Assembly: GCF_040807025.1 (NCBI RefSeq)
Contig: NC_090952.1
Location: 16,923,068-16,987,067 of the forward strand
Direction: 5' to 3'
DNA: 64,000 bases
Origin: Struthio camelus
Taxonomy: Eukaryota; Chordata; Aves; Struthioniformes; Struthionidae
The translations under genes and the position numbers were made by a program. How positions within the stretch are numbered: the stretch's first letter is position 1; each line of letters starts with the position of its first letter. The notes beneath the pieces are model-generated. The model saw only the letters and a program-made list of their open reading frames with translations. It had not been told where the DNA came from and did no database searches. This document shows, one piece after another, positions 6,001-64,000 of this stretch.

Positions 6001-8291
6001 ACTTTAGGGAAGAAATTATTGGAAGGAAAAGAAGAGTGCCTTGGATAAGCAAATCCAGACAGCTTTCAATCTAGACGGTCCACAGTTCATTCACGCTAAC
6101 CCCCAATGAATATTCCTTACTATAACAGAACAGCCTTCAGCACCAAAGCTGCAGCCTGCAGCACACCCAGGACTCGGGTCAGCACCAGGGACCTGGGTCT
6201 CTGCATGGGCCGGGGTTCACCAAGCAGGAACCCCCAGTTGCTCAGATGGAGAAGGTGCTTATGACAGCACAGGAACTCCGACTGCCTGTGTCTGGCCAGC
6301 ACAGATTTGGAGAGGGAAGAAGCTGCAGAATCCTCACTTCAAGAGGGGCAAAAACTTTGTGTCTTAATTAAAGACAAGCCAAGCGAAGAGCATCTTGGCA
6401 GCTCTCTGCTGGTGACAGAGTTATGAATAGACTCAGGAGCACCTGCAGCCACCCATGAGGTGAGAAACTGCCACACTCTTGTTCTGCGTTACCCATGTCA
6501 TCATCTCCCCACTCCTCCATCTTGTGTAACTACTGACAGCTATCCTCGTGGGAGAGGAAAATAGAGTCAAAAACTGGGATTGAAAGCTTGCTCCCGCCCC
6601 TGTGGACACAGGCTACAAGGTCCCTCTGATCACACATACCAAGCAGAAGCCACCAGGGTCTAGATTACAATGGGAGCAGAGTCCCCAAGTGCAGCAGTAG
6701 CATCTGAGGACTCCAAAGGAACAGTGATCCTCACTGAGTTTTGTTACACTGATTTTCTACAGTCTCACGGGTGAAAGCTTTTGGTGAAAGCTACACACCT
6801 AGATCCAGAGTTCAAAAAAAATGGATGTTACCAGCCTTTATTTGCATGCATAGTCTGAACGGTGTGTATATTATACATACACAGTTTTTTCAGAAGGCTT
6901 TGTATGTGAATTGCAAAGGTGGAAATAAGTCTCATGCAAAACATACAGAAGTAACATTAGGATATGAACAATTATTTGGAGAAAAAATTACGCTAGATAC
7001 AAACTTTTTATAGCCTAAGGAATTATCACTGCGAAGAACATGTGTTGATTGCCACTAGTAAATCACATTATGGTAAAGAGCTCTGCCAGGGAAACATCAC
7101 AACACTTTGCTTTCTATAAAGCTTGGACACCAAAAACTCCTATTAAAACGGAATCACATTTAACATTAAAGAGAGAAAAGCTAATGACTTCATTCAACCT
7201 TTCGTTTGAGATTTGTAATCAGTATAAGAATATGTAGTGCATTTGGCCTGGAAAAGGCTTCTTAGACCAACCCAGTGAACATCAAAACTTCAAATGCTTT
7301 TTGTTCACAGCTCCAATGGTTTATGAACTTCAGTAATACTGCAGCTAATATAGCAAGTGCATTCAGCATTTCACATTCTTACATAGGATATGATGAATTG
7401 AGATGAAATTTATGAGTATCCTGAGGAAGCAAGTTGTATCCAGATACTTTAAGCACAAAACATCGACACTGATGAAGCAGAAAGCCAAGTATCAATTACT
7501 TCAGAAATACTCCCCAGAAATACCCCCCCCCAAAAAATTTTGCAAAAAAAAAAATTAAACTTGATTTCTTTCTAAAGAAATAATTTTAAAGGTCTAATCT
7601 CTTTCTAGAAATGAATTAAAACTTCCCATGACTAAAATAAAACTCAGTTATCAAGTTCCTAATATAAAACACTAGCGCAGAAGGAAAAAACTGTTAGCAA
7701 AACATGTCCAAAAATGCACTGCAAGATTCCTAAACATATGAATAATAAGGAAATAGATTTTTTTTTTTAAATGAGGGAGAGTAATTTATCATGGGCACAT
7801 TATAAGGAAATAAATCACTATTTTTTGTTAGTTTCTCTCTCTGCGTCTAAGGAGTCCATGATTTTTCAAACACCTAACAACTCTGCTTTTAGATAAGTTC
7901 CTTTGAGTTCTGAACTAGAGCTAGATGAAAAGTTGTGAACCTTCTTCCCCTTGGTCCTTTCATACTTTAGATATTTAACTAAATATAAAATATTTTAGGA
8001 GAATACAGAATAGCAGCAAGTGTAATTTTTCCTCATCCTCAACAACAGAGGAATACGACAGCTCAGGATATTTACAGCATTACTCATCAGCTTTCAAATT
8101 CCGAGTAAGCTTAAATCTGAGCCTCACGCAGGATTAAAACACAGAGCTATTAACTGTTGAAGAACTGTTGAAGAACATCCTGTCTTTCACCACTTCCCAG
8201 CTCTCTCTCAGCTTCTACCAGAAAATAAATCTATAATGTTCTTGCCAGGTTTCTATCCCCTACCTTAGAACATTAATGATATAGGACTTAC
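1..8291. other. No supportable gene; intergenic or downstream flank
   Basis: I read this stretch on both strands and found no exon I can defend. Open frames of 60-200 codons occur in the GC-richer part (about 2.4-5.5 kb), but they lack splice signals, family motifs or repeated support. I looked for the formin FH1/FH2 exons that should follow the DIAPH2-like exon at 8292-8365 and did not find them. A short direct duplication (TGCGCTGCAAGACAG-type) lies near 2720-2755. The part from 5.6 kb onward is AT-rich. Confidence 0.5.
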
Positions 8292-8365
8292 TTTTTTGGA
8301 AAATTCTGGTGCCTTTTTTTCCCTCCCCTCACTTTCCTCTACTTTAGCTTTCTCCACAAACGAAT
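8292..8365 (-). pseudogene. DIAPH2-like exon, last one recognised
   Basis: A 74-base exon after acceptor TAACTTTAG completes an Asp codon from the previous exon. It reads SFVEKAKVEESEGREKKAPE and then FSKK before a strong donor, GTAAGTCC. DIAPH2 has SCVNKAKVEESEQKAAEFSKK. Relative to that, three codons are inserted in frame after ESE. Both splice sites look usable. Confidence 0.75.
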
Positions 8366-10048
8366 CTAAAGTTACATAGTTACCACAAAAAAGTCGTGTA
8401 AAACGTACCACACCGCTGAGGTTCCTTCCAACTTCAGTTATGCTAAGATCCCATGATACAAAAGCCATAGACAAAAAAACAGTAAATTTAAATCACAAAG
8501 GACTTGCAACCACAACCACTTTCTCTGCTTAACTATAATATTCAGTTAGTTTGAAATTAAATACTGTTTTAAAAAATTTTTTTTGAACAGTCTGGTCTCT
8601 AGTATACTACAGAAGTGCGATTTCACAGTATGCACAATCTATAGCGTAAGTAACTATCAAAAATTGTAGTACTACTCTCTCTCAAATTATGCATTCCCGT
8701 CATCATCCTGATTAATAATTAGGCAACCACAATGAATTAATAAGCTGATCTGACCAAACAGTTGGTGAATTATTTTGTTTTGCTCATCTAAATCAGTAAA
8801 TATAAAAAAGTAGTGAGAACACGTGCCCAGGAAAGTTGAAGACAAATCCTCATAGACTTGTTCTGTTCACTCTCTAACAAATTAGAATTTGCACGTGATG
8901 ATCTTTGCCCTTCTCTTTTACATGAGCTTACTACTAAATAAAAGACAAAAAAGTAGAGTTTAACGCTAGAATGAAGTCATAGCTCCTTCAGGGTTTTTAA
9001 ATCAGAAAGTCTCCCCTTTAACATTAGAAATCCAAAAATAAGTATTTCTGATTTCAACACAATTATTTCGTAGGCTTCTAAAGGAAAAATATAGGCAGAT
9101 TGTAGGGCAGATTTCTTCACTGAACAGTGCTATGAACCACTTCTATTGACTTTTCATGGACTGCAAAACTTAAAACGTTTTAAGTGAGGTAAACATGATT
9201 AACTGCGTATTATAAATAGGAACTAGCATAGGGAGAGAAAACAGTTACCCCTAAAACTAGTAGGTCAGGGGAAACTGAAGTAAGATCAAGCGGTCAGGTT
9301 TTTAAGTCATAATTGAGTAACAGAATGCAGATAGGTACTTTCTGAAAACTGTATTTTTTCCAAAAGTCAACCTGTACAGCAATCTTCCTTTCTTCCCCTT
9401 GTCACATTGCCAAAAACATTTCCCTAAATGAAGATATTTTCAAACAATAACTACTTCCCCATATGAAGTATTTACTCCAGGTATGGCACTGTATTTCAAG
9501 AAAGCAGTCACCTCTACCAATCAAAAAAGCCAAAAACAAAACAAAAAATCCACACTTCTAAATGCAGATAACTCATTTGCAGGACAGTATGATACTTACT
9601 CATCCGTTTCTTCCCCAAACATGTGAATCCACAGTCCCCAATGCTTCAACTAATTAGCTGACCTTACTAAGCAAGGTTAAGTACTTGGTTGCAGAAAATA
9701 TACTGAGAATTAAACGCAGAAGAATTATAAATCCATTAACAATTAATGCTAACTTAAATTTTGAGATTTGGAAGAGACTAGAAATTCAGAAAATTTTGAA
9801 AAAGCAATTTCCAGTTATTAGGATTATACGATTCAGATAGAAGTCAAGATAAAGCTGGAGAAGCAGCCTCAACTACGTAATTTCTTAAAGGCTGGAGAGC
9901 TTGATTTGGCAATATATTCATAACTTATATGAATACTTCCAGAAAATTGAGAAAATTTACACAGCCAATGTAATTTCACACAGAAGCACACAAAGAAAAA
10001 CATATAATTTAGCAAAGAAAAAGGTAAATTTGATTGTAGAATACAAAC

Positions 10049-10160
10049 CCATAAGCCGAGTAAGATCCACATCCAGTCTTCCTCTACATTTAAAATGTGA
10101 GCCCATTCCGCTGCGATACTCTGTGAAATGCATTCTTCTGATATCTTGTAATACCGAGGT
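10049..10160 (-). pseudogene. DIAPH2-like exon with 7-base frameshifting deletion
   Basis: After acceptor GTCAG the exon reads PRYYKISEECISQ (DIAPH2: PQYYKIIEECVSQ). The frame is then lost. About 60 bases later the +1-shifted frame reads SGMGSHFKCRGRLDVDLTRL (DIAPH2: SGMDPDFKYRQRLDIDLTHL). Between SQ and SGM there are 8 bases where 15 are expected, so 7 bases are missing. The donor is ATGG|GTTTGTAT. Homology on both sides makes this the clearest inactivating lesion. Confidence 0.8.
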
Positions 10161-10814
10161 CTGACATTTTACAAGATAATGAGAACATGAATAATAATGT
10201 ATGCAAGCAGGAGGGGGAAAAAAGGACAGCTATACCTCCTGATATTTGAATTACACAATTGCCAGTAAAAGATTCCAATTAAAAGCCTTATTTGTACATC
10301 GGCTAATAAAATATCATTATCAGTTTCTCAAAGGGACATTTGAAAAAATTGAGAACTCCATGAAATATAGTATTTAATTACTCACTGAATGAGTACATCA
10401 ATAGCTTAATTTAACTGCTTGATATACATCTCTGTACTACAGCATCAGGAACCTCTAAGATCACAAGATTCTGTGCTCCCAATTATCAGCTCTTATCACT
10501 GCAAGGTACTACATCTCAATTTCACATAGCAGAGAGCTCTCAGAGGAGAAAACCCTGAAAGCCAAACCAGTGATATTCTAAACTTTCAAATTAAAAAAAA
10601 AAAAAAAACATGTTACAAAAACATTGAAGATTCTCAAGTTTTATTAAACTCTTAATTTATTCATCTCATACATCAGTCATTGTTATCATCCCTTTATAAC
10701 AAAGTATTATTTTTCAAAACAAGCCTTTGTATGTAGTACTTCCATATTGTTAAAGATACTATGCTTCCCCTTCTCCCCACTCCAAAAAAATCAACCATGA
10801 TAGCTGATTCTTAC

Positions 10815-10931
10815 TGGATATAATAACCATTCCTGATGAGAAGGAAGCGTGGAGGAATTGGCAGGAAGTAGTTTTCAGAAGATGCATCTTTCAACATATC
10901 ATACAACAGATTATATACTTCATTAATATCA
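10815..10931 (-). pseudogene. DIAPH2-like exon downstream of U12 intron
   Basis: This 117-base exon reads INEVYNLLYDMLKDASSENY followed by FLPIPPRFLLIRNGYYI. DIAPH2 has MNEVYHLLYNMLKDTAAENY followed by FLSILQHFLLIRNDYYI. The substitutions cluster in a segment that is normally almost invariant. The donor is CCA|GTAAGA. The exon is open in the aligned frame. Confidence 0.8.
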
Positions 10932-11784
10932 GTGCAAATATTGTCAAGGAAATGCACAAGAATTTTAAAAGCTCCCTACATGAGCATTCACATAATTAAT
11001 ATAAACCCTTTAACATTCTGAACTACTACCTTTATTAGTAAATACCCTTTTTGCTGCAACAATTATCCACAGAACCTCTGCTCCCTGTTGAACAATTAAA
11101 ACATGTTTCATAACTACTGAGAAAGATTGCACTGTATACTCATTATCACAAAATCCTATAAGCATATTTCACACAGTTTTCATTTTTACTTTGAAGTAAG
11201 TCTGTCTATTGGCAAAAAGCACACGGGTTAATCATTTTAATTTCTTAAAGATGACAATTCCCAGAATTCTATACCCCCTTCATTGGTACCCACGTTTCTC
11301 AGTTTCTTCAGTACTAACTACTACTTTTTCAGATTCAGAGAACATCAAGCAAGTGTTCTGGAGTCGTAACTTGAAATTTACTGCTTCTTCACATCTACAG
11401 AAGGCATGCATCTTAATGGTTTCCAAACCCATTTGAAAAATTTTTCTGAATTAGTTATCAAACCTATCATTTTATTTCAGACTTAAAATTCAAGTATAAC
11501 TTTACATCTTCATGTCTTAGAAACCAACAGAGTATTTAGTTTAAAAATTGGTATTTATGAAAAACTAATTCAGTTCTTAATGACTTGCATTTGATAGAAA
11601 TCTATCAATATAGACACTAATTTTCTAACTAAATTTCTAACAAAAACACGTGGACTGAAATCTGGTGGTGAAAATCCTTAGGAAGACATGTAATTGAGAT
11701 AGTCAGCTGCATTCAGAGAAGGCTACCTTAAGTTTAATAGAACTATTAATCCGTACATTAGAACACCATTTCTATAAAGGATAT
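10932..11784 (-). other. U12-type AT-AC intron
   Basis: The intron starts with ATATCCTTTA directly after ...GAAATGGA. It ends with TTTGCAC directly before TGATATTAATG. A branch-point motif TTCCTTGAC lies at 10943-10951, close to the minor-spliceosome consensus TTCCTTAAC. Its branch A is about 12 bases from the terminal AC. Joining the exons restores AEM-DD-INEVY, which matches DIAPH2 (AEMDDMNEVY). Length is 853 bases. Confidence 0.82.
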
Positions 11785-11903
11785 TCCATTTCAGCTCCAA
11801 TATCACTGAGACGATGTGACAGCTCAATTAGGTCTTCTTCTTTGTTTTCATCAAACACTTTTAACTGAATATCAAACTCTTCATTCTTGCTACCTTTCAA
11901 GTT
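11785..11903 (-). pseudogene. DIAPH2-like exon upstream of U12 intron
   Basis: This 119-base open exon contains EEFDIQLKVFDENKEEDL and ELSHRLSDIGAEM. It is nearly collinear with DIAPH2 (NDELDIQLKVFDENKEDDL, then ELSHRLNDIRAEM). Substitutions such as Arg to Gly in DIRAEM hit conserved positions. The acceptor (CTTGAAAAATAG) has almost no polypyrimidine tract. The donor is ATATCCTTT, the U12 AT-AC consensus, and the split Asp codon (GA|T) is completed by the next exon. Confidence 0.8.
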
Positions 11904-12034
11904 CTATTTTTCAAGATACAGAATATCTTAATTTTCCATTTTTTCCTTAAAGTAACAATTTCCCCCCTTCAAAGACTACATCACTGCAAAATATAATATA
12001 TTAACCTTGCGAGCAGAAAATACATGATTTAAAA

Positions 12035-12121
12035 GGATATGTTGTAACTCATTTTCTGATTTTAAATATTAGTGCACAGTTGATTAAAGGCAACAATATC
12101 AGCCAATATAGCAGGTACAGG
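12035..12121 (-). pseudogene. Decayed DIAPH2-like exon (ACMQFINALV region)
   Basis: After TACTGCAG the minus strand aligns base by base, with substitutions, to the DIAPH2 exon encoding ACMQFINALVTSPYELDFRIHLRNEF. GCCTGTA and TTGTTGCC are recognisable near the start, and AGAAAATGAGTT near the end. In the aligned frame a TGA appears after about seven codons. No usable donor was recognised, so the low-coordinate end is approximate. Confidence 0.38.
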
Positions 12122-12800
12122 CTGCAGTAGAAACATAAAACCTTCTAATAGAGTTAAGTTCTCTTAACAGAGCATAGCTGACAATTCAGTCTTGTCAATC
12201 TCAGTTCCTCTTAAAAAAAAAAAAAGTGTAAGAATATTTAAGATATCAAAGAAACCAAGCTAAATGCAGCTAAAGAAGGCTAAAAAAGTGTAAATGAGGG
12301 ATGCTTACAACTTTTGTTATTAGACGTTAATCTAGATCATAGCATAAAAACCATCTATAGTGCATTCTCAGAAATACTTACATGAGAAGTAAAAAAACAA
12401 AACAGTTCACTTTTGTTTACTCAAATCATAAAAACAGATGTCAAGAGATGAACATTGCCATAAAAACAGTAACAAAACTTCAGGACACAAGTAAAACAAC
12501 TTTGTCTAACGTAAAACGCAATCCGTCGTTACGTTAGCAACAACGTAATGTAAGAGGCAATAGCATGCTGGTCACATAAACCCCAGTAGGGTATATTCAG
12601 GTATTGCAATGCAAACACACAGAAATAATTACAGTGGTACCAAATTTATTATTTATATATCACATATATATATATAACATCAGTTAGTAGAAACAACATC
12701 AAATATTGTATTGCAAGTGCTTCTGCTATTTTAAAATTGTATCACCTGTAAAGGACCAAGCTTTAGTTCAGAAAATTATTCCCATACTACATTTCCACAC

Positions 12801-12862
12801 TGCTACTCCTTCTCTTCCTCCTCAGTGTTCTCCAATTTGAATATAACTTGTTTTTGCAGTAA
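12801..12862 (-). pseudogene. Decayed DIAPH2-like exon (LENQE region)
   Basis: After a strong polypyrimidine acceptor (TTTAATCTCCAG), the minus strand reads LLQKQVIFKLENTEEEEKE followed by a stop. At DNA level TTACTGCA, then TATTCAAATT, then GGAGAACACTGAGG line up with the DIAPH2 exon encoding AITTAAERNN...PIVEGLENQE, with two short deletions. The 3' boundary is uncertain. Confidence 0.42.
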
Positions 12863-12865
12863 CTG

Positions 12866-12889
12866 GAGATTAAAAAAAAAAAAAAAAAA
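12866..12889. repeat. A-rich homopolymer run
   Basis: A run of about 18 A bases on the plus strand. On the minus strand it forms the long T tract of the acceptor for the decayed exon at 12801-12862. A similar A run lies at about 10591-10608. Confidence 0.7.
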
Positions 12890-13044
12890 CACATCAACAC
12901 AACTAAAATAACCAGGTATGTAATTTCTACTCCTGCACAGCATTTCTGCAAAATGCCTGAAATCTCAGGCTACTGGCTAATGCTATAACTGAACAGCTCT
13001 GCATTTTAACTGATTTATTTTAAAACTGGCAGACAATAGCAGTA

Positions 13045-13252
13045 AGAAGTGGTGGGAGGAGTGTGATAAGTGGTAGTGGGGGGGGGGAGGGGGACATCAT
13101 GTGCCCAGAGAGGGTGATACTTTAGCATGAGTGGTGATACCTGGCCAGGGGGTGATATACTGGAATGGGAGCATGATAAGTGGGGGGGTGGGGGGAGAGG
13201 GGAAGAGGACGACCTGTCAAAACAGAGGAGTGATGAGTGATGGTGGTGGGAT
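13045..13252 (+). repeat. Imperfect purine-rich tandem repeat, G-run rich
   Basis: Degenerate copies of GTGATAAGTGG and GGGGTGATA with runs of up to eleven G, for example near 13078-13096 and 13180-13198. Nearly all G, A and T on the plus strand. It lies just downstream of the decayed exon at 13290-13369. It could form G-quadruplexes. Confidence 0.65.
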
Positions 13253-13289
13253 CTTCCATACCTGATAACACTACAGTGACAACACTTAC

Positions 13290-13369
13290 CAGCAGCAAAC
13301 ATGCATTACACATTCAGCATGCCCAAGATCTTCTCCACTACCACCTCATGTCGCCACTGCTTTGGCTCA
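13290..13369 (-). pseudogene. Decayed DIAPH2-like exon (DPKQ...KIL region)
   Basis: The minus strand shows a good acceptor (CCTTTCAG) and donor (CTGCTG|GTAAGTG). The only long frame reads EPKQWRHEVVVEKILGMLNV and then hits TAA. The DIAPH2 counterpart is DPKQPNMMTEIVKILSA. DPKQ/EPKQ and KIL match, but the middle is scrambled by small indels and the frame stops before the donor. Confidence 0.45.
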
Positions 13370-14704
13370 CTGAAAGGATCAGGAAGGAAACCTTACAAGG
13401 AAGCCACCTGTTACTCGCATTACCTTGAACTTCCTCTTTTCTCTTCCCCTGCTCCCTCCCACAAAAAGGCTCTGAAACCAATTCAGAAATAAGTTTCCTG
13501 TTTACACAGTAAGAGCCTGTATTTACTACAAACTCCTAAGGGCATTTTGTTTTCTTTAACAGAGAAGGTGTGGCGATCTTACAGTATTCACTACACCTTT
13601 AAAATCAAACACTACCACACCCAGGTGACTGAATACCTTCTGTAGCTGTAACAAATCCAACAGCGTTTTCCATGTGGGGACTCATTCCTGAATTAAATTT
13701 CTAAGGTATTTCTCAATTTTTACAAGTCAGAGGAGGTTATGGTTTATATTAACGTATAGATTACAATATCATACAGTCGCCTTAACAAATATTTTTCAGA
13801 TCTACCAACTTGCATGCATTGTGCTGCTTTCATATCATGTCCAGATAAACAGCTACCATCAGAAGAGGGCTGAAAAGCAGACACAATGGTGTTTTAACAG
13901 TATTAATGGATGAACTCAGACAAACCAATAGAAAAGGAAGAGTTCCAGTGCGCCACAACTCTGGCCGTACTAAATCCAGTAAATAATCCACAAAGAGAAG
14001 AAAAAAAATAAGGGGGATTTTTTGACTGGATCAGTCTCTATCCTTTTTGTTACTCTGCCACACAAAAACTTTAGTGAGTATAGCACACAGATCAGCATGG
14101 TGACTGTTTAAGCAAGCACTGCTGCCAAAAAAACTTAGTGAGCCTTATCCCCTCCCTGCGATTCTGACTGCATTAGAACAAACAAAGCAGCAGCAGTCAC
14201 TTCGGCCCAGACCCACGAAGCACTCAGCTCTGCTACAAATAGCTCTTTCAGAATAAATCTGGCTGAAGTCTTTATGCCCACAGGTGCTCGTTACACTTCT
14301 ACTAAGTTATGCCTTAACAGTTTACACCACTTCTATGAAACAGAGCTGTGAAGTCATTAAAGAGGTTTTTGTTTGTTTAAGACTCTAGTAAATTCAGTTG
14401 TGAACACCTTCCATTAAAGAAAACTAGAGAAAAGCAGCTGAACTGGAGCAAAGTTTTGAAATGCTCCTTCCTTCTGCAAGCCCGCTCACAATCTTTAAGA
14501 ACCTGACAGCATTTTCATCCCAGCTCTGCATACCTGAGTTGACCAATCCTACACTATTAAATCTCACAGGACATATTTGATTATTAACATTAGCACCCAT
14601 TCTGAATTACTTCCTGCTCTATGCTTCTTTCTCCTCCTCACCCAGGGAAGACCCTGAAACCCTGTCATGTATTAAGGATGTCAGTACCACAAAGTGTTCA
14701 AAAA

Positions 14705-14707
14705 TAT

Positions 14708-14762
<55 letters not shown>
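14705..14762. repeat. Compound (AC)n(AT)n(AC)n microsatellite
   Basis: Alternating CA repeats, then TA repeats, then CA repeats, without interruption over about 58 bases inside an intron of the DIAPH2-like locus. Likely polymorphic in length. Confidence 0.9.
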
Positions 14763-14764
<2 letters not shown>

Positions 14765-14963
14765 ATTGGGCACATTATGTACACGCTGCATTATATTTCC
14801 TCCTATGCATGAAAGAGGTCACAAACAGGAAATCTTGAATTCCTGTCAATTCGTAAGTGTCACCAACTTTGAGTTCTTCTTCCATTCTTTTAAAAATCAC
14901 AGCATACTACAAGCATTTTAGCTTCTCTACACTGAAGACAGAGATCTATATCTTAAAAGAGGT

Positions 14964-15079
14964 ACCTTATACATGAAATCTCAGAGTAGCTGAAGTTCTG
15001 CAAGTGATATATTCACAAACTTCTCTTGGTAGCAGTTTGCTCTTCCAGGAATCAAAAATTCTAAAACCAACATCTGCTG
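14964..15079 (-). pseudogene. Decayed DIAPH2-like exon (KREMVVQYIS region)
   Basis: On the minus strand, after an acceptor-like TTTGGACAG, the DNA around 14985-15045 aligns with the codons for RNKDFTTKREMVVQYIS of DIAPH2. The block CTACCAAGAGA is kept, then TTTGTG and AATATATC, with small deletions between. The longest frame reads LLPREVCEYIT and ends at a stop. The outer limits are approximate. Confidence 0.4.
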
Positions 15080-15524
15080 CTGTCCAAAGAGGATAAACAT
15101 GTCATGCTGCATCATGCCACGCTGCATCATGTCACACGCAACAGATGTCAAAGAACCTTGATTGCATTTTTAAATCCATTTCTGAAACATTATTTTCTAC
15201 CTTCAGTCAGTTAAAATGCCTATTAAAGAGTAATGTTTGACCACTCTTCACAAGAGCTAGAGCTGAAATCAGTAAAAACTACTTAGTATAAATATTTTAT
15301 TTGTCAACGAGTAGCTAAAATTGATTTATGTTCAATGACAGCACTGTGCAACACTTTAAAATTAACACATTTACACAAGTATAGTAAAGTAATACTATGA
15401 GAAAATAGTCCTGTTTTTCTAAACAAAATCTAAATATTTCTTATCTTAAAAAAATTAAGAGGAAAAAATTGTTAGCTATCTAAAATACTATTTACTAAAC
15501 CATTTTGGCAGCTCTAAATCCAGA

Positions 15525-15763
15525 TGATTTAGAACCACAGGAAGTTCCATCTGAACCTGAGAAAAAACTTCTTCACTGTGAGGGTGACAGAGCATTGGAA
15601 CAGGTTGCCCAGAGAGGTGGTGGAGTCTCCTTCACTGGAGATATTCAAAACCCGTCAGGATGTGATCCTGGGCAATATGCTCTAGGTGACCCTGCTTGAA
15701 CAGGGAGGTTGGACTAGATGATCTCCAGAGGTCCCTTCCAACCTAAACGATTCTGTGATGATA
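15525..15763 (+). mobile_element. CR1 LINE, truncated 3' end
   Basis: The stretch has the standard 3' portion of a chicken-repeat-1 element. It begins near GGAAGTTCCATCTGAAC, passes through CTTCTTCACTGTGAGGGTG and GGTTGCCCAGAGAGGT, and then GGTTGGACTAGATGATCTCC. It ends in the ATTCTGTGATG-type tail without poly-A. It is 5'-truncated to about 240 bases, as most avian copies are, and sits antisense in an intron of the DIAPH2-like locus. It is the best single indicator that the host is a bird. The 64-codon open frame across it is element sequence, not a gene. Confidence 0.92.
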
Positions 15764-16476
15764 ATCTGGATTTACTCGGATCATGAATATGATACACATC
15801 TGCTATTCACTTGGTGATATATCCAACTATCGCTCCAATTTGCTAAGCAATATGCTGTGAAACACCACAACAGTGCATGAGACTGCCAGAATGTGGCATT
15901 CCATTGTAGGTAAAAAAGATAATATTCACCAATATCTTAGGTGTCTTTTGAGGGAAAAACCTAACAGCAAAATAGTTAATCGAAGAAGATCAAGGGCAAA
16001 TGTATTTTAACCATTGCAGATCTCTGTCTTTTATCCAAGATGTTTAATGTGACCTTTTAAAGGTCATTTTAACATTCTAAGTCCAAACTGCACGTAATCT
16101 GTTCAAAATTACGAATGTTGCCTTAGCAATTGTAGGTATTCTATTCAGGTTATTTTTTGAAGTAAGTGACTGCTTAAGCATTTCTTCCATTTTCACCCCC
16201 TTTTCCCATAAAATGGACTAACGGTCAACAAGAAGAATATATTTGCATTACCAACTGTTTTAGTACGGGCTCCTGTCAAGCAAGGTAGCTTGTCAGAAGA
16301 TAGCTTTAGCTTGTCTAGCTATTAGGAAGTTATGCTTGAAAGCAGGAGATTATAGATGTTCCCTCCACCAATATTGCGGAGAAAAGGTACTTGACTGACA
16401 AGACCTTAAGTGAAAAATCTATTTGATACAAAAAACAACATACAAGTTTAGGCTGGCCTAAATTAGGTTTACTTGC

Positions 16477-16555
16477 CTGCAACTTCCTAAATTGATATAA
16501 ATTGTCTTCTGTTAATCTTCTTTCAAAATTATCTGCTCTCCTCATCATGAATCCT
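16477..16555 (-). pseudogene. Possible DIAPH2-like exon 2 remnant
   Basis: An open stretch following ...TTTTTAATAG reads RRADNFERRLT and then QFRKLQ. It resembles the DIAPH2 segment LADDVRDRITSFRK that directly follows NKPKL, with a few extra codons inserted. It would end at a GC donor (CAG|GCAAGT). The position between exon 1 and the 15.0 kb match fits. Similarity is modest and could be chance. Confidence 0.3.
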
Positions 16556-17489
16556 TTCTATTAAAAAGACTTTTCCTCCAAAATAGAGTTATTAAATGAT
16601 AAAAAATACAAAATAGAACCTTGATATACAAGTTGCAAGCAACTGTGCAAAAACATTCAGTTTAGTCATTTCCTAACTTCTTGTGGTTTTAAGGCTGAGC
16701 GAGTAAAATGATGAATAACTAAATGAAGTTGTCAGTTGCTTCAGCAGCAAGGATCATCTCTTTCTTTTCCACTTTACCTTCTAGATTTGGACAGGGGTAA
16801 AAACAATTACAGAGATTGTATTAGGCAGTACTGCATATCTCTAAAGAATTGCAATTGATGAAGATAAAGTCATCTTTTAACACAGCCAACATTTTTTAAG
16901 CCTATCCTTCCCTTCACATATGAACTTGGGTCATCAGCAATCGCAGTATCATTAACATAAAATTTAGAGGCTAACTGTAAAATAAATATATAAATATATA
17001 AACCATAAGCTCACCCTTACTAACTTGAACATTGAGCACCCCAGTGCTTAACACTAAGAAAGCATCACTTCTATTTGACGCATACACTGTCAGTTTGTGC
17101 TATAATTGTCTTTCTTGTCGCCCAGAGAGAATTAGTTCTGCTTGTAAAGCTTCCTGTACAGTGTGACCTAGCTCAACTGCTTCGTCTTACAAGAAGTACT
17201 CCAGGAAGTTTAACTACCACAAGCAGACAGGCTTGTCACTGTATCTATCATCTCACCTAAACAGCAGCCCTCTCTACCACACTAGAGTTAGTGCCTGCTC
17301 TAATACCAGTATCATCTTCTCCTAAAGAAACAAGTTTCCAGAAGGTGTCAAGTTCACTCTTCAACAACAGCTACCTCTTAACTTCACCTAACTGGAATAA
17401 AGTGAAAAAAAAAACAAACCTGCAGGGGCTCAAGTCCCACTCCACAGGCCTGACGCCCCCAAAAGCTTGTTACACCACCCACCGGACGC

Positions 17490-18200
17490 GGCCGATGCCG
17501 CGGCTGCCCCTCTCCCCCCCGGGACGGCCGAGCAACCCCCGCCCCTCTAACCGGCCTCCAGACGGAGCCCGGGAACTCCCGGCTGCCGCCCGCAGCCGCC
17601 GCGGGCCGTTACCACCCGCGGGCCCCCCGCGCGCCGCCTGCCCCGCCCCGCCCCAGCGCCTCGGGGGCTCCGGACGCCTCGGGCCCCGGCCCCTCCCGCT
17701 GCCCCCGCCCGGCCCCGCCGCCCCCTCACCAGCTTGGGCTTGTTGCGGCTCTCCTCCTCGGCGGCGCGCCCGCTCCTCTTCGCGCTCGCCCTGCCGGCGC
17801 TCAGCGGCTCCTCGCCGCCGCCGCCAGCGCCCAGGGCCGCCTGGCTCTCCATCCTCCCGCCCGCGCCGCGCCCCAGGGGAGACCCTTTCCCGCGCCGAGG
17901 GGCCGTTTCCTCAAGGCCCCATAGGGCCGACGCGCGCCGCCGGCACCGCGGGCGGCTCCCCACCCCCCGCCGCAGCGGACCCCGGCCCCGCCGCCCCCTC
18001 GCCTCCTGCCGGCCCAGCGCCTCAGCAGCGCCCCACCTCGCTCCGCGCGGGGCCGTTGGCGCGCACGCGCCGCCGCCCCGCGCATGCGTCGTCGAGGAAG
18101 GCGGGAAGGGCGCCCTGAGGAGGGGCGGCGGCAGAAGCGCCCGTCGCCGCCCACGGCGGATGCGGCCTCTACCCCGGCAGCCGCCAGGCCCGCGCACGGG
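17490..18200 (-). promoter_or_regulatory. CpG island, promoter of the DIAPH2-like locus
   Basis: Very high G+C with dense CpG from about 17.49 to 18.2 kb, sharply bounded by AT-rich DNA on both sides. It covers exon 1 and its presumed 5' leader (17852 upward). GC-box-like GGGGCGG/CCCCGCCC runs occur near 17640-17660. CpG density has not decayed, which implies an unmethylated germline state. It may also fire towards higher coordinates, but no divergent gene was seen. Confidence 0.75.
17730..17852 (-). pseudogene. DIAPH2-like exon 1, start codon to first donor
   Basis: Forty-one codons run from an ATG at 17852 (context GGGAGGATGG) to a donor CTG|GTGAGG at 17730/17729. The peptide starts MESQAALGAGGGGEEP and ends EEESRNKPKL. 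That has the layout of the DIAPH2 N-terminus: a Gly-rich start, an EEP, a KRS, then an acidic stretch and NKPKL. The frame is open and the donor is good, in contrast to the decayed exons downstream. Confidence 0.75.
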
Positions 18201-18240
18201 GCGCTCTACACATAGAGGGTTTCTAAAAAGGTGGCCTTAA

Positions 18241-21200
18241 GTATCTTCCCCTTCCCAGGCTGGACGTAGTGGACAACCGATGTTTTAATAAAAACTGAGG
18301 GGTTGTTAACACAACCTGAAGACCGTTTTTTGTCCCACGCAGGTTTGAGAACGGCAGTCCCTGGTGTGTGAGGTTTCGACACCTGCTCGCTGTTCACGAC
18401 GATGAATGAAACTCTTTGAGCTGTCTATGTGGGTTAGATAATTCCTTTGGCTGAGCCTCGCTATCTAAATTGAAGGTTTCTCAGCGTGGGCGTATTAGTC
18501 AGAATAGAGGGGAAAAAGGATTGCATCTGTAACTGGTAGAGGGCTCGTGTGGACGGGTGTCCTCCTACCAATAGAGTTACGTTGCTTAAAAAAATACACA
18601 TCTCGCTGGCGTAGCTGAGTATGTGTTGGGTAAGTCACACCGTTTTGGGCCATCCCTGTATCTTTGGCATACAAACTGAGATACGAACATACTATTCGGT
18701 TGCCCTCTCGAGGGTCACAACTGTACGCTCCTGGCAAAGTGGGCCTGTTCCTTTTCAGAAGGCAGGTGAGACCCGAACAGCGGGTTTCCCCAAGTCTAAT
18801 GCACGCGTCGTTAACGCAAGCCTGAGGTGCACGTAGCAGGCTGCGTTTCTTGTGACTCTCCAAGACTAGCCTCAGTCCTGGATGGAATCATATAAATAAA
18901 TATAAGACCCAACATCCACAACCTGTAGATAAAATCTGACAGCAGTAGTTTTCAAATAAAATCACAGCTCTAAAGCTTTCAGTGGCCGTAAAATTGGAGT
19001 TCAATCTTTACAACAGAAGTTAAGAGATTATAAAACAGGCGAGGTCTGTCAAGCAGACTGGCTAACTGCTCAAATCTAAACTTTTATTTGGGATGTACTT
19101 CTGCTTTTTAGCATATATTTTTCCTGTTATTTCATCTCATTCATTTTATATTTGGGCACTGTTCATGCTATCATAACTTCAGAATTACAAAATCAATCAG
19201 GCCGTTATGAATGTAGTCACTTGTTTACAGTGACAGGCAATACAAAGTTATTTCCAACCACATCAGTTCCTAATTTAGAAACTGCATCATTCTACAGGGA
19301 CAGTTTAACACGTAATTTGCTAGCTTCAGTTAAAAAAAAAAAACACACATATCTGTTTTTCTTCTCTTCAGTCAGCCTTTCTGGCAATTTTGTTTTTCTG
19401 TGCTGTCTTTATTTGTCTGTATTAAGCAGCACCCATAACTGGAGCAGAAGGTCAGTCATTCCAGAGTCAGAGAAAAGAGAATACTTTCCAACTGCCTGAC
19501 ATTCCTAGGCACAAATTTAAGGGTTTCTAAAGCAAATGCTGTAGTGCTGTTTGTTCGGCATGACTCTTAAATGCTGTAGAATGTCGTTCTACCCAACATT
19601 CTTGGATTTGCCACAAGACTAGTCATACTGCTTTAGCCAAGTCAAACTTACATTGAACTCAGCTCTAAGATGAGAGAACAGCAGGAAAAACATTACAGAA
19701 AGTAACGGCAGGATTAATGAAAACAGGTACATGTGGAAGGTCTCAAGAAAACTGTACATAGGTATATTTAGGCATTAAGTTAACTTTTTGATGAAGTAGC
19801 ATCATATGCATCATCATCTTAGGCAAGATGGGAAAATAAACCACTGAGGTTAAGTGTAGGGACTATGCACATTAAACTGAAAAAACTTTCATTTACTGTT
19901 TTCAGTGCTCTTACGCAATAATAGCTACAGCCCTCACTGTAATGGAGACAAGATGTGCATCCATCAGGCTATAGCTATATATATCACATGATGAAAGATT
20001 TACCCAAAAGTACTCTTACCTACTTCTTTTTCCTGTTGCCATTTGACAATGGGACAAATGACTGGCAGATGGCAAGTTTACTATATTGCCACTTTTTTAA
20101 ACTCCCAACTTGCACACATTCTGCAAGTCTGCACGTACAGGGCTTGGCTATGACATAAAATCATTCTTTGAATTGTACAAGACACTGCTACAGCATTTTC
20201 TAGAGGAGTGTTTAATTACATTACTGTAAATCAATAATCATTATATCTACTTCACAGTCTCGACTTTAACTTCAGCAGAAGTTAAAGTCTTTTCTTTTTG
20301 CAAATGTTTTTAGTCATACACTAGAATTTTAGTATTCATATTTCTTTCAGTTTCCAGGATGGAAAAACAAATAATCCATGTATGAACCAAAGACATAGGA
20401 GCGTATAAACTCTGCAGGTAATTTTAAGTAAAAGGAGTAAGATGAGATAATGCCATTATCCCAATTAGGAAAATTTAAGTGGGAAAGCCCCTCCACAAAA
20501 AAAAAAAAAAAACAACCCAAAACACAACAAAATGAAAAAAAAAACCCCACAACTCTCTTTAAACCAACAAACAAACTTCAGATCATTTCGGCAATCAGTT
20601 TGCAGTACAGTGTTTTGGCCCATCTCTAAGAGCAGCCTAGTAAGCTTGAAGGTGGAAATTAGTAGTTGTTGTAAATTTGTTTTTAATTTGGCTTGGTCTC
20701 TGAAGAACATTTACTTTAAAAGTATACATTTTGCAAAACTCACTTCATAACATTAAAATTATGTAACCACAGAAGGCCAGTACTATGCAGACACTAACAT
20801 TTCTCCTTGTGGTTTCTCATGTAATCTCGGTCATATTGTCACATAACCACAGTAGCCAACAGTGACAGAAAACTGCAAATAAACATCTATTAAAAAACAA
20901 ACAAACAAACAAAAAACAGACCATTAACTTAGGGCAAAGAGATCGTGGCCTGATAGGCATGAGATATTTTGAGCCCCCTCTCAAAGACATACTATTTATG
21001 TCCGAATTTGAACAAAACGGGCCTGTGAAGATGACTGGCTGACCCAAGCAATACAAGTACTGATCCCTCTCTCCCCCTTTCTCTAAACGTAAAAAATACA
21101 ACTGTGCTAACTTCCAGAAGATACCCCAAGAACATATGTAAAAGAAAAGGGTTTTACGTTTGTGACAGTTTTCAATAACTGAGTTTCCATTTGCCAGAGA

Positions 21201-24200
21201 AGGCATAAGCCTCTGCTTAAGACAGAAATTCTAAAACAGCTGAAGTCAACTGGTCACCAAAGCAGTTACTCATATTTTAGTCCTTGAGAAATGTTCTGTT
21301 CTCCAGATTTTCGGTAGCCAACAAGGAAATCAACAAGGTTGAAATCATTGTCCTAACTGCACTGGGGGAAAAAAAAAAAAAGGAAAGAAAAAATTAATGT
21401 TCTATATACTACCAGAGGTGAAAACATACTATATTTAACTTAACCTCAAGCAGGAAATATGTTGTTAAGTCATCCAGTTGAACATACCCTCAGCTTTTCA
21501 TCCAAAAATTCTTTATCATTAGCACAGCCACTCTATCACAGAAAACCCTCTACAATCATCCTTCCACTGCTCCTGTCGCGTTCCAAACGTTCCTCAAACT
21601 GTCTTGTCTCTCCTCCCTATTACTGTACCCAGTTTTCTCCTGAAGCAGTTACTCTCCTGCCCCTTGCCCCTTTTTGCAGTTTTAGATGACCTATTTTTAC
21701 ATTCAGAAACTTAAAAAGTCCTGAAAACTCTTCAGGAGGAAGCCAGACTGAGATTGCTTACAGTGCGTGAGAACGTGGTAAAATACAGTTATAAAAAAGT
21801 CACAGTGTAAATAACTTAAAAGGTAGGAAAATGAGATTAGAAATATTGACTACTAAGCAATGTAAAGGAACAGAGAACATTATTTGGATACAAATAGATA
21901 TTCTACATTGACAAAATAACATCACTCGCTAAAAATGTTCTCTTTAATAAATATAATTTAGTTTGCAAATCTAAATCTAGAGAAAAATTCACCTACTGTT
22001 AAGATAGTCCCAAGAAGTACCCGTTTGCCAAAGGTTTGTTTAATCCACAAAGGTAACTTCCTGGCCTGTTAGAGGCAGTCATCCTACGTTTGCATAATGT
22101 GTCTGTAAATTAAGTCACAAGAAGCTACTGTCGTATATCTAACAACGTACGAACGTTGTAAGTTCATTAAAACATCCTAAATTAATCATTGAAAAATGAA
22201 GCTATACTTCATATTAAGATCACAAACAGAATCAGAAATGTTAACTAAAAGCACAGCTAATTACGAATATTTCTTAAACAGGGGAGGAATACAGCATAGG
22301 CAGCTTCTGCACAGCTATTTCAGTGAGTTTGATTGTCCATGGCCACAGCTACACTTTGTTTTTAACCAGTTGTGAGATGGCTGCAGAACAGTTCACTGAT
22401 TAGGCTATATAGGGGAAAATTTTGAGCCAGCTTACATATTTGGTCTGTACCTATTTATACTTTTTAGGAAGAGGAAGCTGGCAGCTCCTACCTATTGTTT
22501 AAAAACCGTTTTCATATTGCATAGGCTGGCGAGGTAATGAACTCCACAGTCACAGCAGACCTACAGCTGGACTTTACTTGCTATGTCTAGCTCCAGGTTA
22601 AAACCAAAAACACTGGCGTTAAACAAGGTATAATATTATTACATGCTGTAGTAAACATACGTAGTCAACCTGTGCCAAGACACTTCCTTCCATAAATAAA
22701 CTTATGTAAATCCAAAAAAAACCTAAATACTGGCTTTAATCTGAACAAATTTTTAGCGAGCTTAATTTACTCCAGGACAGGCTCATCTTATATTTAGGAA
22801 CTGAAAATTTGATACACTTTTAAGGTTTACATTTTCCAAAGTGTTACTTTTTTGTTAAGGCATTTTCCCTTTTTGAAGCAATTAACTAAATTAAGTGAAT
22901 TCTGTTTGCACCATTTTCTACATTTTGGCTATTTAGTCTATAATTCTAGATCACAACTATGTTTCTCTTCTCCGCATGATCTTTTCCCGTCAGATTTTAA
23001 CAGAACATTAAAACTGTATTCATTTCCCAGTCACCTTTTCTAGAAACAAATACATGTATGAAAAATTTGCAGAAGACCACTTCAGAGGATGATATAAAAA
23101 AAAAAATACAAAAAGGTTAACATTACTTTTGCAGAAATAAGTAAACATAAATCCTTTTTTTCTTCTTGTTATAGATTTTTTCCCACAGGAAAAAACAGCT
23201 GGGTTTGAGCAAAGCATACAGTCATAGTCCAGAACATAATAAGATCTAGGTTTTTTTTTTTTTCCCGAGAACACAAAAATAGGATTCCCTAAAACAATCT
23301 TTGCTTTCCCAACTATTAAGATATGACTGGCAGTGGTAAACCTGAGTGCAAAGACTACACAGAATCCAAAGCCAGCTACTAAAATGTGGCTACAATAAAT
23401 TAAATTTTTTAAAAGTCAAAGTAAAAGAAGTGATTTCAAACCATTTTGCAAACCTATTTCTTATTATATATAGATTTTCATTGTAAGAAAAGACTTCTCT
23501 TTGACACAGCAAAACCTACCAAGGTCCTCCCTCCTGCCCTTTTTACTCATTGAAATTTAACGCTCCTTCCTGCAAGTTTGATGGTGGTCCTTTATACTCA
23601 AGTTTTCTTTCACTTTTTAAACGTCTCTGTTACTCAGTTTTTCTGTTACCAATACTGTTGTGAAAGCCATGCTACCTAAGCATCATGTGACATTATTCTT
23701 TCATCACCTTTACCTACAGCTATGGAAACTTGGGTACCTACTATGCTACCACGTTTTCCTGCTTCAGTTTACATACAATGACTGAGAATAGTTTAATAGT
23801 TTTAATAACCTACTGAAAGCTGACTAAAAGGACTAGCCTGAGGAATGCAAGACGGGTAAACGCAATATTTACTGGTTGTTTGATATCCTTGCACAAGATT
23901 AATACTTGTGCTGATCTTTATGTCATTTCTTTGGACACTGGTATATGAACTAGCTAATATACTAGTACTAGCTAATCGCTAATATAGTACTTTTTAATTG
24001 ATTCCCTTGTTTCCCTTTGCTTCTAAAATATGAATCTGCAATCATACTTCATACAAACTGTGGTTATTTGTGCAATTTCTCTCTCAGCTTTGCGTCTAGC
24101 AGTAATTCTCAATACTGTTGGCGAGAACAATGCCTGCTGCATTTTTTCATGCAGTAATCATTTTCATGCAATGGTATCGTACAGAACTTCCTGGGTTAAT

Positions 24201-24600
24201 ATTTCCATTTTTAACAACATTTTATGTACCAGAACAGGACTAGTTTATCTGAATATGAGCCAGTAATGCCTCTTTTATTACAATGCTCAGATTTCTTTCC
24301 AGCCTTAAAGAACTGGATATGATCTATACAGAGAGAGAAAAAGAAATATTGCGGCTAAATACTATTTCTCAGTTTTCAAACATACATTTAATACTGCATA
24401 TACGTGCTGCCACCTTGCCATTTTTAACAATACAGTACATCTTTTCGATTTAGAGTCAAATCCCAGTAGTTACTGTTGAATTAGGGTATTCAAGCTCTTT
24501 TAGTAACAGCTACTAAATTTTCACACTTTTTCTATCATCTCTTCTACTTTAGACCAGTGCGTCTATGTACTACCTGTAGCTGACAATGTACTCCAGAGAG
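18241..24600. other. AT-rich intergenic stretch, nothing recognised
   Basis: No exon with paired splice signals and family similarity was found on either strand. Poly-A runs occur near 19330, 20500 and 21370, and an (AAAC)n run near 20900. The sequence is uniformly AT-rich and low in CpG. Confidence 0.5.
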
Positions 24601-27600
24601 CGCCTTCTATCATTGCATGTGGTTCTGCAAAAGGAAACAGAGAAGAAAAGGGGATGTTTCTTCAGAAAAAAGCAGGGTTTTTTCCTGCTCCAAGGCTACT
24701 GGAGGACTTTGCTGTCTGTTTGCTCTGCAGGTCTCCCTATGGACCAGTAGTTGACTTGCTTAGTTTGTAAAGCTGTGGTATGTTCCCCAAAGTATTTAAA
24801 GCTTGTCTTTCGACGTTCCTGTCTCACAGTGCAATTCAGGCAAGGACTTTTGCTCTGGATATAGTCGAAAAGCTTCACAGAGCAGCGCCAAAGTATCTCC
24901 ACTTCAAAACTACCCTAGCGACTTTCTTAGCAAGGTTTGTGTTCTTACCCTGGACATGGGCCTCAGAGAGGGTCCTCACCCTCCACCCAGCGTGTTGTCT
25001 GGGCTTACTCTGACCTCCAGGGAAGGCCAGTGTTGCCCCTCCTGAGAGTTCCCTCCTGTCTATCTTTTTTCCTTCAGGCAGCAGCACTGTCTACGCAAGC
25101 TATTGCAGACCATCCTGCTTAGCAAAGCACCCAGGCATTTCTCCCTAGAGGACAGCCAGACCCAGGAGGGGCCGATGGGATCACTCCAGCCCCGACAACT
25201 CACCCTGGCTCCCCCCCTGTCCTGCACCACACGCAGGCCTGAGCTGCTGGGATCACAGCACTCAAGGAGATCAAGGGTCCTGCTATAACTACAGATAATC
25301 CAGAGAGGGAGGCAAGCAGAGGCATTCGCTTCCTTTATCTGGCTGCAAGAAGGATAAGCCTAAATCCTCAATTATATTTCCCCTCCCTCCCACCCCTCCT
25401 CTAGTCCAGGAGACATAATCTGGCATCTGGCCGAGGCTGAAAGGCAATGTTTAGGAACAGGTACAGGAAAGACTTGATGTCTCAGAGGGAGGGGAGGGAA
25501 AGAGTAAGCCTGCAATCTAAAAGCACCCCTCCCAGCAGACCCTGATTCTGCAGGCTCTCACCTTAAATCAGCCACATGAACGAGAAATCTCTCCTGCCCC
25601 AGAGCCTGGAGAAACTAGCCATGGTCGATGCCCCCGGGAGATGGCAAGCTCAGAGGTGACCTGCTCCTCCTTCAGGTAGGACTGACCCCCTCTGTCCTGG
25701 GCAGTGCCATCTTGCCCAAGCCTGGCTCCCAGCTTTGAGGCTCTCCTCAACTCCTACCAGCTGCAACCCTGCTGAGGCAATGTGGCTTCCCTGCCAGGAG
25801 CTGCCCTGCTCAGACACCTGCACTGCACCGGCACAGCCCCACCGTCCCCATGAAGCTCTGCACTATGAGCAGAGCCTACTGGGGATTCCCAAACCAGATG
25901 GTTCAGGGACTACCTCTGCTTGAACCTTTCCCCCAAGGCCAAGCAGCCCTAGGAGCTTCTCAGCACTTCCCTGCAGAGATGGGCTGAGGAGGGCACTCGG
26001 CAGAGCAGTGCCACTGTCCCATCCTCAGCATGGGGTAGGGAAGCCTTTGCTTCAGGAGCCCTGAAACAGGGGGTCAGTAACTGTCATCCCCAGGGGGGCG
26101 GTGGGAAGGTGGTCCCAGGGTTTTCCATCTTCCCCTCCACATCTCCAAGTGAGATGGCTCCCTCCAGCCTTCTGCTGGGGGTGGGGAGGAGGGTCTGCAA
26201 CTGCCCTCCCCTCTGCTCACCCGCCCATCGCCTGGAGCGGCTGTCATGGCAACACGTGCTGGGGACTTCACTTTAGTGAAACCTGTAGGCAGTGCCTGGA
26301 TAGTTGGAACAGGGAAAGGAGCAGGTGAGCAAGCGAGACAGCCTTGGCTGCAGCTCACAAAGAGGCTGACCTGGACCAGCCCCTCTGCATTCAGTGCAAC
26401 AAACCTATTTACCAGTGTTGGCACAACACACGCAGGTTTGCAGCCTCCTGCACCCCAAGAGAGGGGGTTGCCAACATTAGCCATTCAGCTCTCCTCCTTA
26501 CAGCTTGGCAACATGCCCATACTGACAGTGATATTGCCCCAACACCACCCCAGGGCCCCACGTGAAGATATGGGCAGTGGAGGGTTTGAGCTCCATTGGA
26601 CAAAACTGGGACCAAGCACCCAGTCTGCATGACTTTCTGGGTGCTCAGCATCCATCCTGCTCTCCAAAGGGCAGACCTGACCTCTTGACTCACTGAAACA
26701 CCTTGGTAAGTTTTCTCCCTCTTAAAAGACCTCAAACACCCGTTAGGCACTGCAGAGAAAATATCCATTGCCTGGCACTACCAAAAACTCTTTGGGTATG
26801 GTGGTGGCTCCCATGGTGGTAGGTGGTGGCTGCCCTCCCTGGCCATTTCCCAGGAGCAGTCCCAGGCTCTGGCACCAACCAGCATCACCCGTGGATAATG
26901 AGAACAAGCTGAGAACGGAGCTTTTTCTTAGGAATCCCACTCAGAGCTACAGGAGAGGCAAGCAGTGCTTTGCTTTCAGAGCTATCACGACCAAGTCATT
27001 CCCTCACTTCAGCATACAGTTGCCTAGCAGCCTGGTGATCTTCCTCACCATCCAGCTTCCCAGCCCTTGGAGAAGGGATGCAAATCCTGCACACGGCACC
27101 CACCCAGTGCGGTGCCTCGCTCCCAGGAACACAGCACCAGCAATGCAGTGGGCAGTCCTGACTCTCCCTGGGTGCGGAGCAGGTAGGAGCTGGGGGAGGC
27201 AGATCCATCCAGGGAGAGCTCCAAGAGGCCCATGCCAAAGAGCTTGGAGCTGCCTCTGAGTTTTTCTGATCTTCAGGAGACTACAGTCTGGCTGAGCCCA
27301 CTGGAGAGACATGGTGCCATCAGGAAGACAGAGCGAAACCGGAGCTTTCTCCCTGCTTCTCATCATTGTTGGACCCCATCTCTAGCAAAGCAGACTATTG
27401 CATAGCTCAGCACTGTGAGGAAGGCCGTCCGTGACTTCAGCAGCATCTCTATCACACGACAGGCCAGAATACCAGTTGCCAGGGATCCCAGCAAGCCATC
27501 AAGCCAACCATCCTCACAAACATTTCATACCTCTCCCCCTGGCACTGCACGCACTATGACGAACCTGCTCACCAGGGTGAGCTTGGTGTGCTGCAAGAGC

Positions 27601-61006: not shown

Positions 61007-64000
<2,994 letters not shown>

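Follow-up and report, generated by a model that had tools for sequence, protein, structure and literature searches.

Do the DIAPH2-like formin exons that lie next to CNGA2 in the genome of Struthio camelus belong to a decayed local gene, or were they copied from elsewhere, and what has happened to them since? We analysed a window of 64,000 nucleotides (C11:16,923,068-16,987,067, where C11 is contig NC_090952.1) within its own assembly (1.45 Gb, 262 contigs). An initial annotation of the window had described the exons as an unprocessed pseudogene, either a segmental duplicate or the remains of a local paralogue, and had proposed a genome search for a second, intact DIAPH2, the lack of which would speak against it. 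Such a gene was found at C11:20.92-21.10 Mb, about 4 Mb from the window on the same contig, and the two loci are co-linear at about 86% identity, which establishes the first option. The pseudogene itself is an ordinary partial duplicate. The part worth specialist attention is its CpG-island promoter, which is nearly identical to that of the parent gene. The locus is, in our judgement, likely to be a non-functional partial DIAPH2 duplicate that has drifted neutrally and whose CpG island later took part in interlocus gene conversion.

An inverted partial duplicate of DIAPH2

Searched in six frames with Drf_FH3, the whole genome yielded 21 matches, of which two lie on the plus strand of C11 at 20.98 Mb. 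The region around them was read as twenty adjacent 10-kb stretches (C11:20,860,001-21,060,000), and it contains the DIAPH2 exons in order, starting with exon 1 at 20,923,042-20,923,164. Parent exons 1-15 have ordinary splice sites (edges read by eye), except for intron 11, which has the donor ATATCCTTT, the branch site TTCCTTGAC and an AC end. The FH2 exons run on to C11:21,097,033, and past 21.06 Mb they were seen only as FH2 profile matches. Judged by exons 1-15 and the FH2 profile matches, rather than by a full assembled coding sequence, this second DIAPH2 appears intact. Its exons 11-14 match six distinct chains of diaphanous homologue 1 (best 2bnx, E 6e-49) and Drf_FH3 (118.6 bits). From avian gene maps, contigs C1 and C13 would be expected to hold DIAPH3 and DIAPH1.

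When the window was compared by blastn with 200 kb of the parent region, 12 of the 17 matches formed one inverted co-linear chain. Of the remaining five, four come from a CR1-like repeat or its fragments, and one falls within the chain but runs the opposite way. The chain shows that window 6,728-24,788 (minus strand) is an inverted segmental duplicate of C11:20,915,993-20,985,194, reaching from the upstream region through exon 1 into intron 15, and that several internal segments are absent from it. The alignment extends over exons, introns and about 6.9 kb of DNA ahead of exon 1; introns 11-13 align with small gaps, together with parts of introns 1, 9, 10, 14 and 15, at 80-88% identity per block. 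The introns are present and homologous to those of the parent, indicating an unprocessed duplicated pseudogene. The features of a processed pseudogene are lacking: besides the presence of introns, the two outer junctions (50 and 90 bases compared) share no same-orientation word longer than 6 bases that could be a target-site duplication; a poly-A tail was not looked for. The limits first given, 8292-17852, thus enclose a real feature but cut it short, among other things by the upstream DNA. Both outer ends are abrupt, as parent 20,910,001-20,915,992 and the parent DNA past 20,985,194 are unmatched in the window, the repeat excepted. In the composition profile the GC fraction falls to 0.32-0.38 between 8 and 16 kb and to about 0.35 between 20 and 24 kb, compared with about 0.5 in the surroundings, and this AT-rich island is the inserted duplicate segment.

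At the join at window 13042-13258 the copy is missing 45.6 kb of the parent (20,930,530-20,976,116) with exons 2-9, and the join contains 217 bp of G-rich low-complexity DNA with no clear parent counterpart. Two other joins, at 12403-12414 and 7022-7023, mark the absence of 1.87 kb with exon 10 and of 0.9 kb with exon 15. Also missing are 3.2 kb of parent intron 1, save a 61-bp piece, and there are smaller gaps besides. What lies between exons 1 and 11 of the copy is parent intron 1 (20,926,624-20,930,530), intron 9 (20,976,116-20,976,712) and a portion of intron 10. The weaker exons initially annotated, up to five in number, are therefore spurious, because parent exons 2-10 lie in segments that the copy does not have. 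The small exon span, which had also been remarked on, is explained by the short introns 11, 12 and 13 of the parent itself (about 0.9, 0.7 and 1.7 kb) and by the 45.6 kb missing at one join. A repeat at window 15532-15759, which we take to be a CR1, is 95% like two other places of the DIAPH2 region by blastn. It is absent from the parent site (20928326/20928331), and thus it was probably inserted after the duplication. A genome-wide search for the exon 11-14 segment, and likewise one for the DNA beyond it, found at its sensitivity no place other than the window and the parent.

The exons of the copy were searched by tblastn with a human DIAPH2 protein sequence, which also gave many chance matches to the proline-rich part, and their exact limits were set against the genome's own DIAPH2. 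Five exons were found on the minus strand in DIAPH2 order with their introns, in agreement with the at least five well-defined exons first described, and they are exons 1, 11, 12, 13 and 14. Exon 1 (17730-17852; best E 1e-5) has 41 codons, is identical to parent exon 1 and keeps its donor GT. Exon 11 (11785-11903; E 4e-12), from the FH3/DID part, has 11 mismatches in 119 positions and no indel, and it scores 28.5 bits against Drf_FH3 (cut-off 27). Exon 12 (10815-10931; E 2e-11) has 13 mismatches in 117 positions and no indel, and scores 12.4 bits, below the cut-off; the other eight pieces sent to Pfam had no formin match. Exon 13 (10049-10160; E 7e-6) has 14 mismatches and a 7-bp deletion that shifts the frame, while exon 14 (8292-8365; E 0.006) has 8 mismatches and a 9-bp in-frame insertion. 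The initial annotation had reported stops or a frame-shifting deletion in several exons. The frameshift was confirmed, in exon 13 alone, but no in-frame stop was found in exons 1, 11, 12 and 14 of the copy in their own frame.

The reading frame of the copy is disabled by the deletion in exon 13 and by the absence of exons 2-10 and 15, and the copy ends in intron 15. A working formin has GBD/FH3 and FH1-FH2-DAD in one frame; the copy has a single FH3 exon and a frameshift, and none of the 44 FH2 profile matches in the genome lies inside the window. The splice dinucleotides of its five exons (4 acceptors, 5 donors) are nevertheless kept. Read without correction, exons 1-11-12-13-14 give a continuous frame of 165 codons that closes in exon 14, with exons 1 and 11 joined in frame, and the hypothetical product would be without the FH1, FH2 and DAD parts.

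Intron 11 (window 10932-11784; C11:20979202-20980076) has in both gene and pseudogene an AT-AC donor, a branch site and an AC end, signals characteristic of the U12 type. The donor ATATCCTTT at exon 11 and the branch TTCCTTGAC with the AC end at exon 12 are both kept in the copy. A loss of the exon 11/12 splice sites in the copy was considered and rejected, since these signals are intact in both copies.

The near-identical tract in a diverged copy

The interpretation of the initial annotation holds; it had over-counted exons and stops, and a near-identical promoter tract had escaped it. Outside this tract, 2,259 of 16,042 aligned columns differ between copy and parent (14.1%, K80 0.158), about 60 of these columns, near window 6,885-6,947, being probably misaligned across a small inversion. 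At this place about 44 bp (window 6885-6928) match parent 20984985-20985028 at 98% in an orientation opposite to both neighbours, which would fit a small inversion in one of the two copies. A palindrome suggested here by blastn was not found in the window, and the inversion relative to the parent fits instead.

A pedigree study of the zebra finch gives a mutation rate of 2.0e-9 per site per year (PMC12047795). At this rate the duplication is about 40 million years old, and rates of 1.5-2.5e-9 give 53-32 million years; the rate of this species may differ. Exons 11-14 differ in 46 of 413 columns (11.1%) and the rest in 2,213 of 15,629 (14.2%). The 137 comparable codons have 15 synonymous and 31 non-synonymous changes and no stop (proportions of sites pS 0.189 and pN 0.091), as expected if the copy drifts and the parent is constrained. 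Polarised against the DIAPH1 chain 2bnx, the 29 amino-acid differences in exons 11-14 comprise 17 copy-derived changes (16 without one that rests on an outgroup letter supplied by us), one parent-derived change and 11 that were unpolarised. The excess of changes in the copy, together with pS and pN, therefore points to constraint on the parent and to much weaker constraint, or none, on the copy.

Within this diverged copy, window 17492-18033 (minus strand) aligns to the parent with only 2 substitutions in 542 columns, both non-coding, one 10-bp indel and one gap column at the edge. The tract covers the CpG island, the 5' flank, the whole of exon 1 and the start of intron 1, and has 83% GC and a CpG observed/expected ratio of 0.97. 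On the upstream side divergence is back at once, with 13 of 70 columns differing at window 18,034-18,103. On the intron side the tract ends at an indel, and beyond it the 61-bp piece matches at 85%. Elsewhere, any run of 542 aligned columns has 47 differences or more, and stretches with no more than 2 differences reach 123 columns at most; under uniform divergence the chance of such a tract is 8e-33.

Slow evolution of the island does not explain the tract. The GC-rich island columns just beyond it differ at 16 of 98, and the related copies of the island on contig C5 are only about 75% like it, the one compared with both window and parent being 73-75% like them. Thus the island is not intrinsically frozen, and what remains is a bounded stretch far more alike than both of its flanks, as gene conversion leaves. 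Provided that the island has the same mutation rate as the other DNA, two events correspond to a tract age of about 1 million years as a point estimate, and their 95% interval lies at 0.3-8% of the duplication's age.

Proposed gene conversion and its rivals

We propose the following course of events. A segment spanning about 69 kb in the parent, from the upstream region to intron 15, was copied in inverted orientation from C11:20.92 Mb to a site on the same contig 7.7 kb from the end of the CNGA2 open frame. The copy stops short of FH1, FH2 and DAD, has no exons 2-10 and 15, acquired the frameshift and probably the CR1-like insertion, and appears to drift neutrally; we infer that the missing stretches disappeared from the finished copy and were not skipped in the copying. 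Later, perhaps about 1 million years ago, about 0.54 kb with the CpG island and exon 1 would have been copied between the loci by interlocus gene conversion. It would most likely have begun with a meiotic break in the island, for whose repair the paralogue at a distance of 4 Mb served as template. Repair would copy only the stretch with enough identity, its bounds being set by the indel and the divergent flank. We assume the direction from parent to copy, given the constraint on the parent.

Conversion at a CpG island would be in line with the PRDM9-free recombination of birds. In the zebra finch, which is without PRDM9, 17.8% of non-crossovers are found no more than 100 bp from a CpG island, where 11.5% would be expected, a ratio of 1.54 (PMC12047795). 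Several points weigh against conversion of a drifting copy. The same study gives a mean allelic non-crossover tract of about 32 bp for the zebra finch, which makes 542 bp long for one event, and notes that in baboons and humans less than 2% of events are of kilobase length (PMC12047795). A stretch with 83% GC is open to gap-filling or collapse error in assembly. Moreover, exon 1 is identical, the splice dinucleotides are kept and the exons diverge less than the rest (11.1% vs 14.2%), so that transcription of the copy or weak constraint on it is possible.

The main rival is an assembly artefact, in which reads from the working gene were used to fill or polish a GC-rich gap in the pseudogene. 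Its GC content makes the tract the kind of DNA that assemblies lose, and its edges are abrupt, one of them lying at an indel. However, the two tracts are not identical, as they differ by the 2 substitutions and the 10-bp indel, and the window has no Ns. The contigs are of chromosome size (C11 has 29.8 Mb), and the 14% divergence of the flanks should separate long reads. We consider an artefact unlikely, while giving it more weight than any other rival. Purifying selection could instead have kept both islands alike, with the promoter of the copy in use for a non-coding RNA or for the 165-codon frame. The identity of exon 1, a CpG observed/expected ratio near 1 in the island of the copy, the splice dinucleotides and the in-frame junction of exons 1 and 11 all agree with this. 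Against this, the non-coding columns of the tract match almost as well as the coding ones, and its edges are sharp. Just beyond these edges 16 of 98 columns of the same island differ, the C5 copies of the island are about 25% different, and by our own estimate splice sites would be kept about one time in four without any selection. We therefore regard selection as improbable.

Conversion would be mimicked by a recent second insertion of promoter DNA, separate from the old island, because a sharp-edged tract would look alike. The tract, however, lies at the co-linear place, with older homologous island DNA upstream and the 61-bp match at 85% on the intron side. An insertion of this kind would need to take the exact place of the old stretch, and that amounts to conversion; we give it very little credence. 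The reading of the window copy as the genome's sole DIAPH2 in decay, or as a local paralogue left by an ancient genome duplication, is almost certainly wrong: after the genome search nothing speaks for it, and the intact-looking DIAPH2 on the same contig and the alignable introns refute it. Interlocus gene conversion in a neutrally drifting duplicate thus remains the explanation that we favour.

The locus shares with other unprocessed pseudogenes and partial segmental duplications the kept introns, the lesions, an intact-looking parent elsewhere and divergence in exons and introns alike. It is unlike them in that it holds only exons 1 and 11-14 and in that its promoter stretch is far younger than the rest. 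A sharply bounded stretch of high identity within a diverged duplicate is also what interlocus gene conversion between duplicates produces, and PMC10100218 names such conversion as a possible reason why recent mammalian duplicates have similar promoters. Unlike the duplicates described there, the DIAPH2 copy is about 40 million years old by the rate used, the partners are inverted and 4 Mb apart, and the tract is just the CpG-island promoter. With the PRDM9-independent recombination of birds it would have in common the CpG island as the site of conversion, whereas the events reported in PMC12047795 are allelic with a mean tract of about 32 bp, and here an ectopic event would cover about 542 bp. 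In the open-access library searched we found no title or abstract opening on a DIAPH2 duplicate in birds, and no paper on non-allelic or ectopic gene conversion in birds with PRDM9, or with CpG islands and paralogs.

This is a simple, roughly dated two-copy system, and the only homogenised part of the 18-kb duplicate is the CpG-island promoter. We tentatively suggest, as a possibility that we hold to be somewhat less probable than its opposite, that in a PRDM9-less bird ectopic exchange favours promoters, owing to meiotic breaks at CpG islands. From time to time the live gene's promoter would then replace that of a dead copy 4 Mb off, or vice versa, as the remainder of the duplicate goes on decaying. 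For birds, which are without PRDM9 (PMC12047795), ectopic conversion between duplicates should cluster at CpG islands, and this could be checked genome-wide on any long-read bird assembly. If the process is general, dispersed avian duplicates should carry the signature of a young promoter in an old copy, and CpG-island pseudogenes would be long-term sequence partners of live promoters. Similarity in a promoter or exon 1 can also make an old duplicate seem young.

Other DIAPH2-derived copies and neighbouring genes

A third copy, with upstream DNA only, was found on C13. Window 18.9-22.8 kb matches C13:13,579,869-13,584,075, from parent 20,918,012 on, and the C13 copy is 81-83% like the window and 82-87% like the parent. 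Among the matches listed for the island (the best 40 of 85 candidates), none falls on the C13 copy.

The query with the island and exon 1 also matched at least 37 places on C5 between 5888326 and 14367478 (8.5 Mb) and one at C11:3076579. The C5 count is a lower bound, as the best 40 of 85 candidates were scored, and weaker copies may exist elsewhere. These places carry a diverged DIAPH2 5' fragment with the island, exon-1-like DNA (the ATG is lost in the three loci read), intron 1 and exon 3. Two C5 copies are 97% alike, and the one at C11:3076579 is 92-95% like them. The tested copy of this type had a local score of 128, compared with 33.5 (standard deviation 5.2, maximum 58) in 300 shuffles, and pieces of intron 1 follow in order in the three loci read; thus the likeness is homology and not just GC content. 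In 20 kb of one such copy there were 15 matches to the parent region. Nine of them are ordered along parent 20,925,399-20,944,982, including exon 3, at 69-78%, and the other six look like dispersed repeats. No FH3 or FH2 match among those listed genome-wide lies in C5 5.89-14.37 Mb. The most diverged DIAPH2 5' fragment is thus the one multiplied on C5. Taken together, the window, C13 and C5 copies indicate three or more copying events of DNA from the DIAPH2 5' end or its immediate upstream flank.

Scans of the window for tRNA genes and Rfam families gave no match each. In its left 6.7 kb no other gene was recognised by eye in open frames of at least 75 codons, and no further search was made there. 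The adjacency of CNGA2 that the initial annotation had noted was confirmed, its large open frame (stop to stop) lying at 32452-33900 on the minus strand. The second neighbour is an open frame with a Gla domain at 62036-62311 (minus strand) from a PRRG-type gene, presumably PRRG3. This gene (window 61010-62311) and CNGA2 are ordered as in the human arrangement, PRRG3-FATE1-CNGA2.

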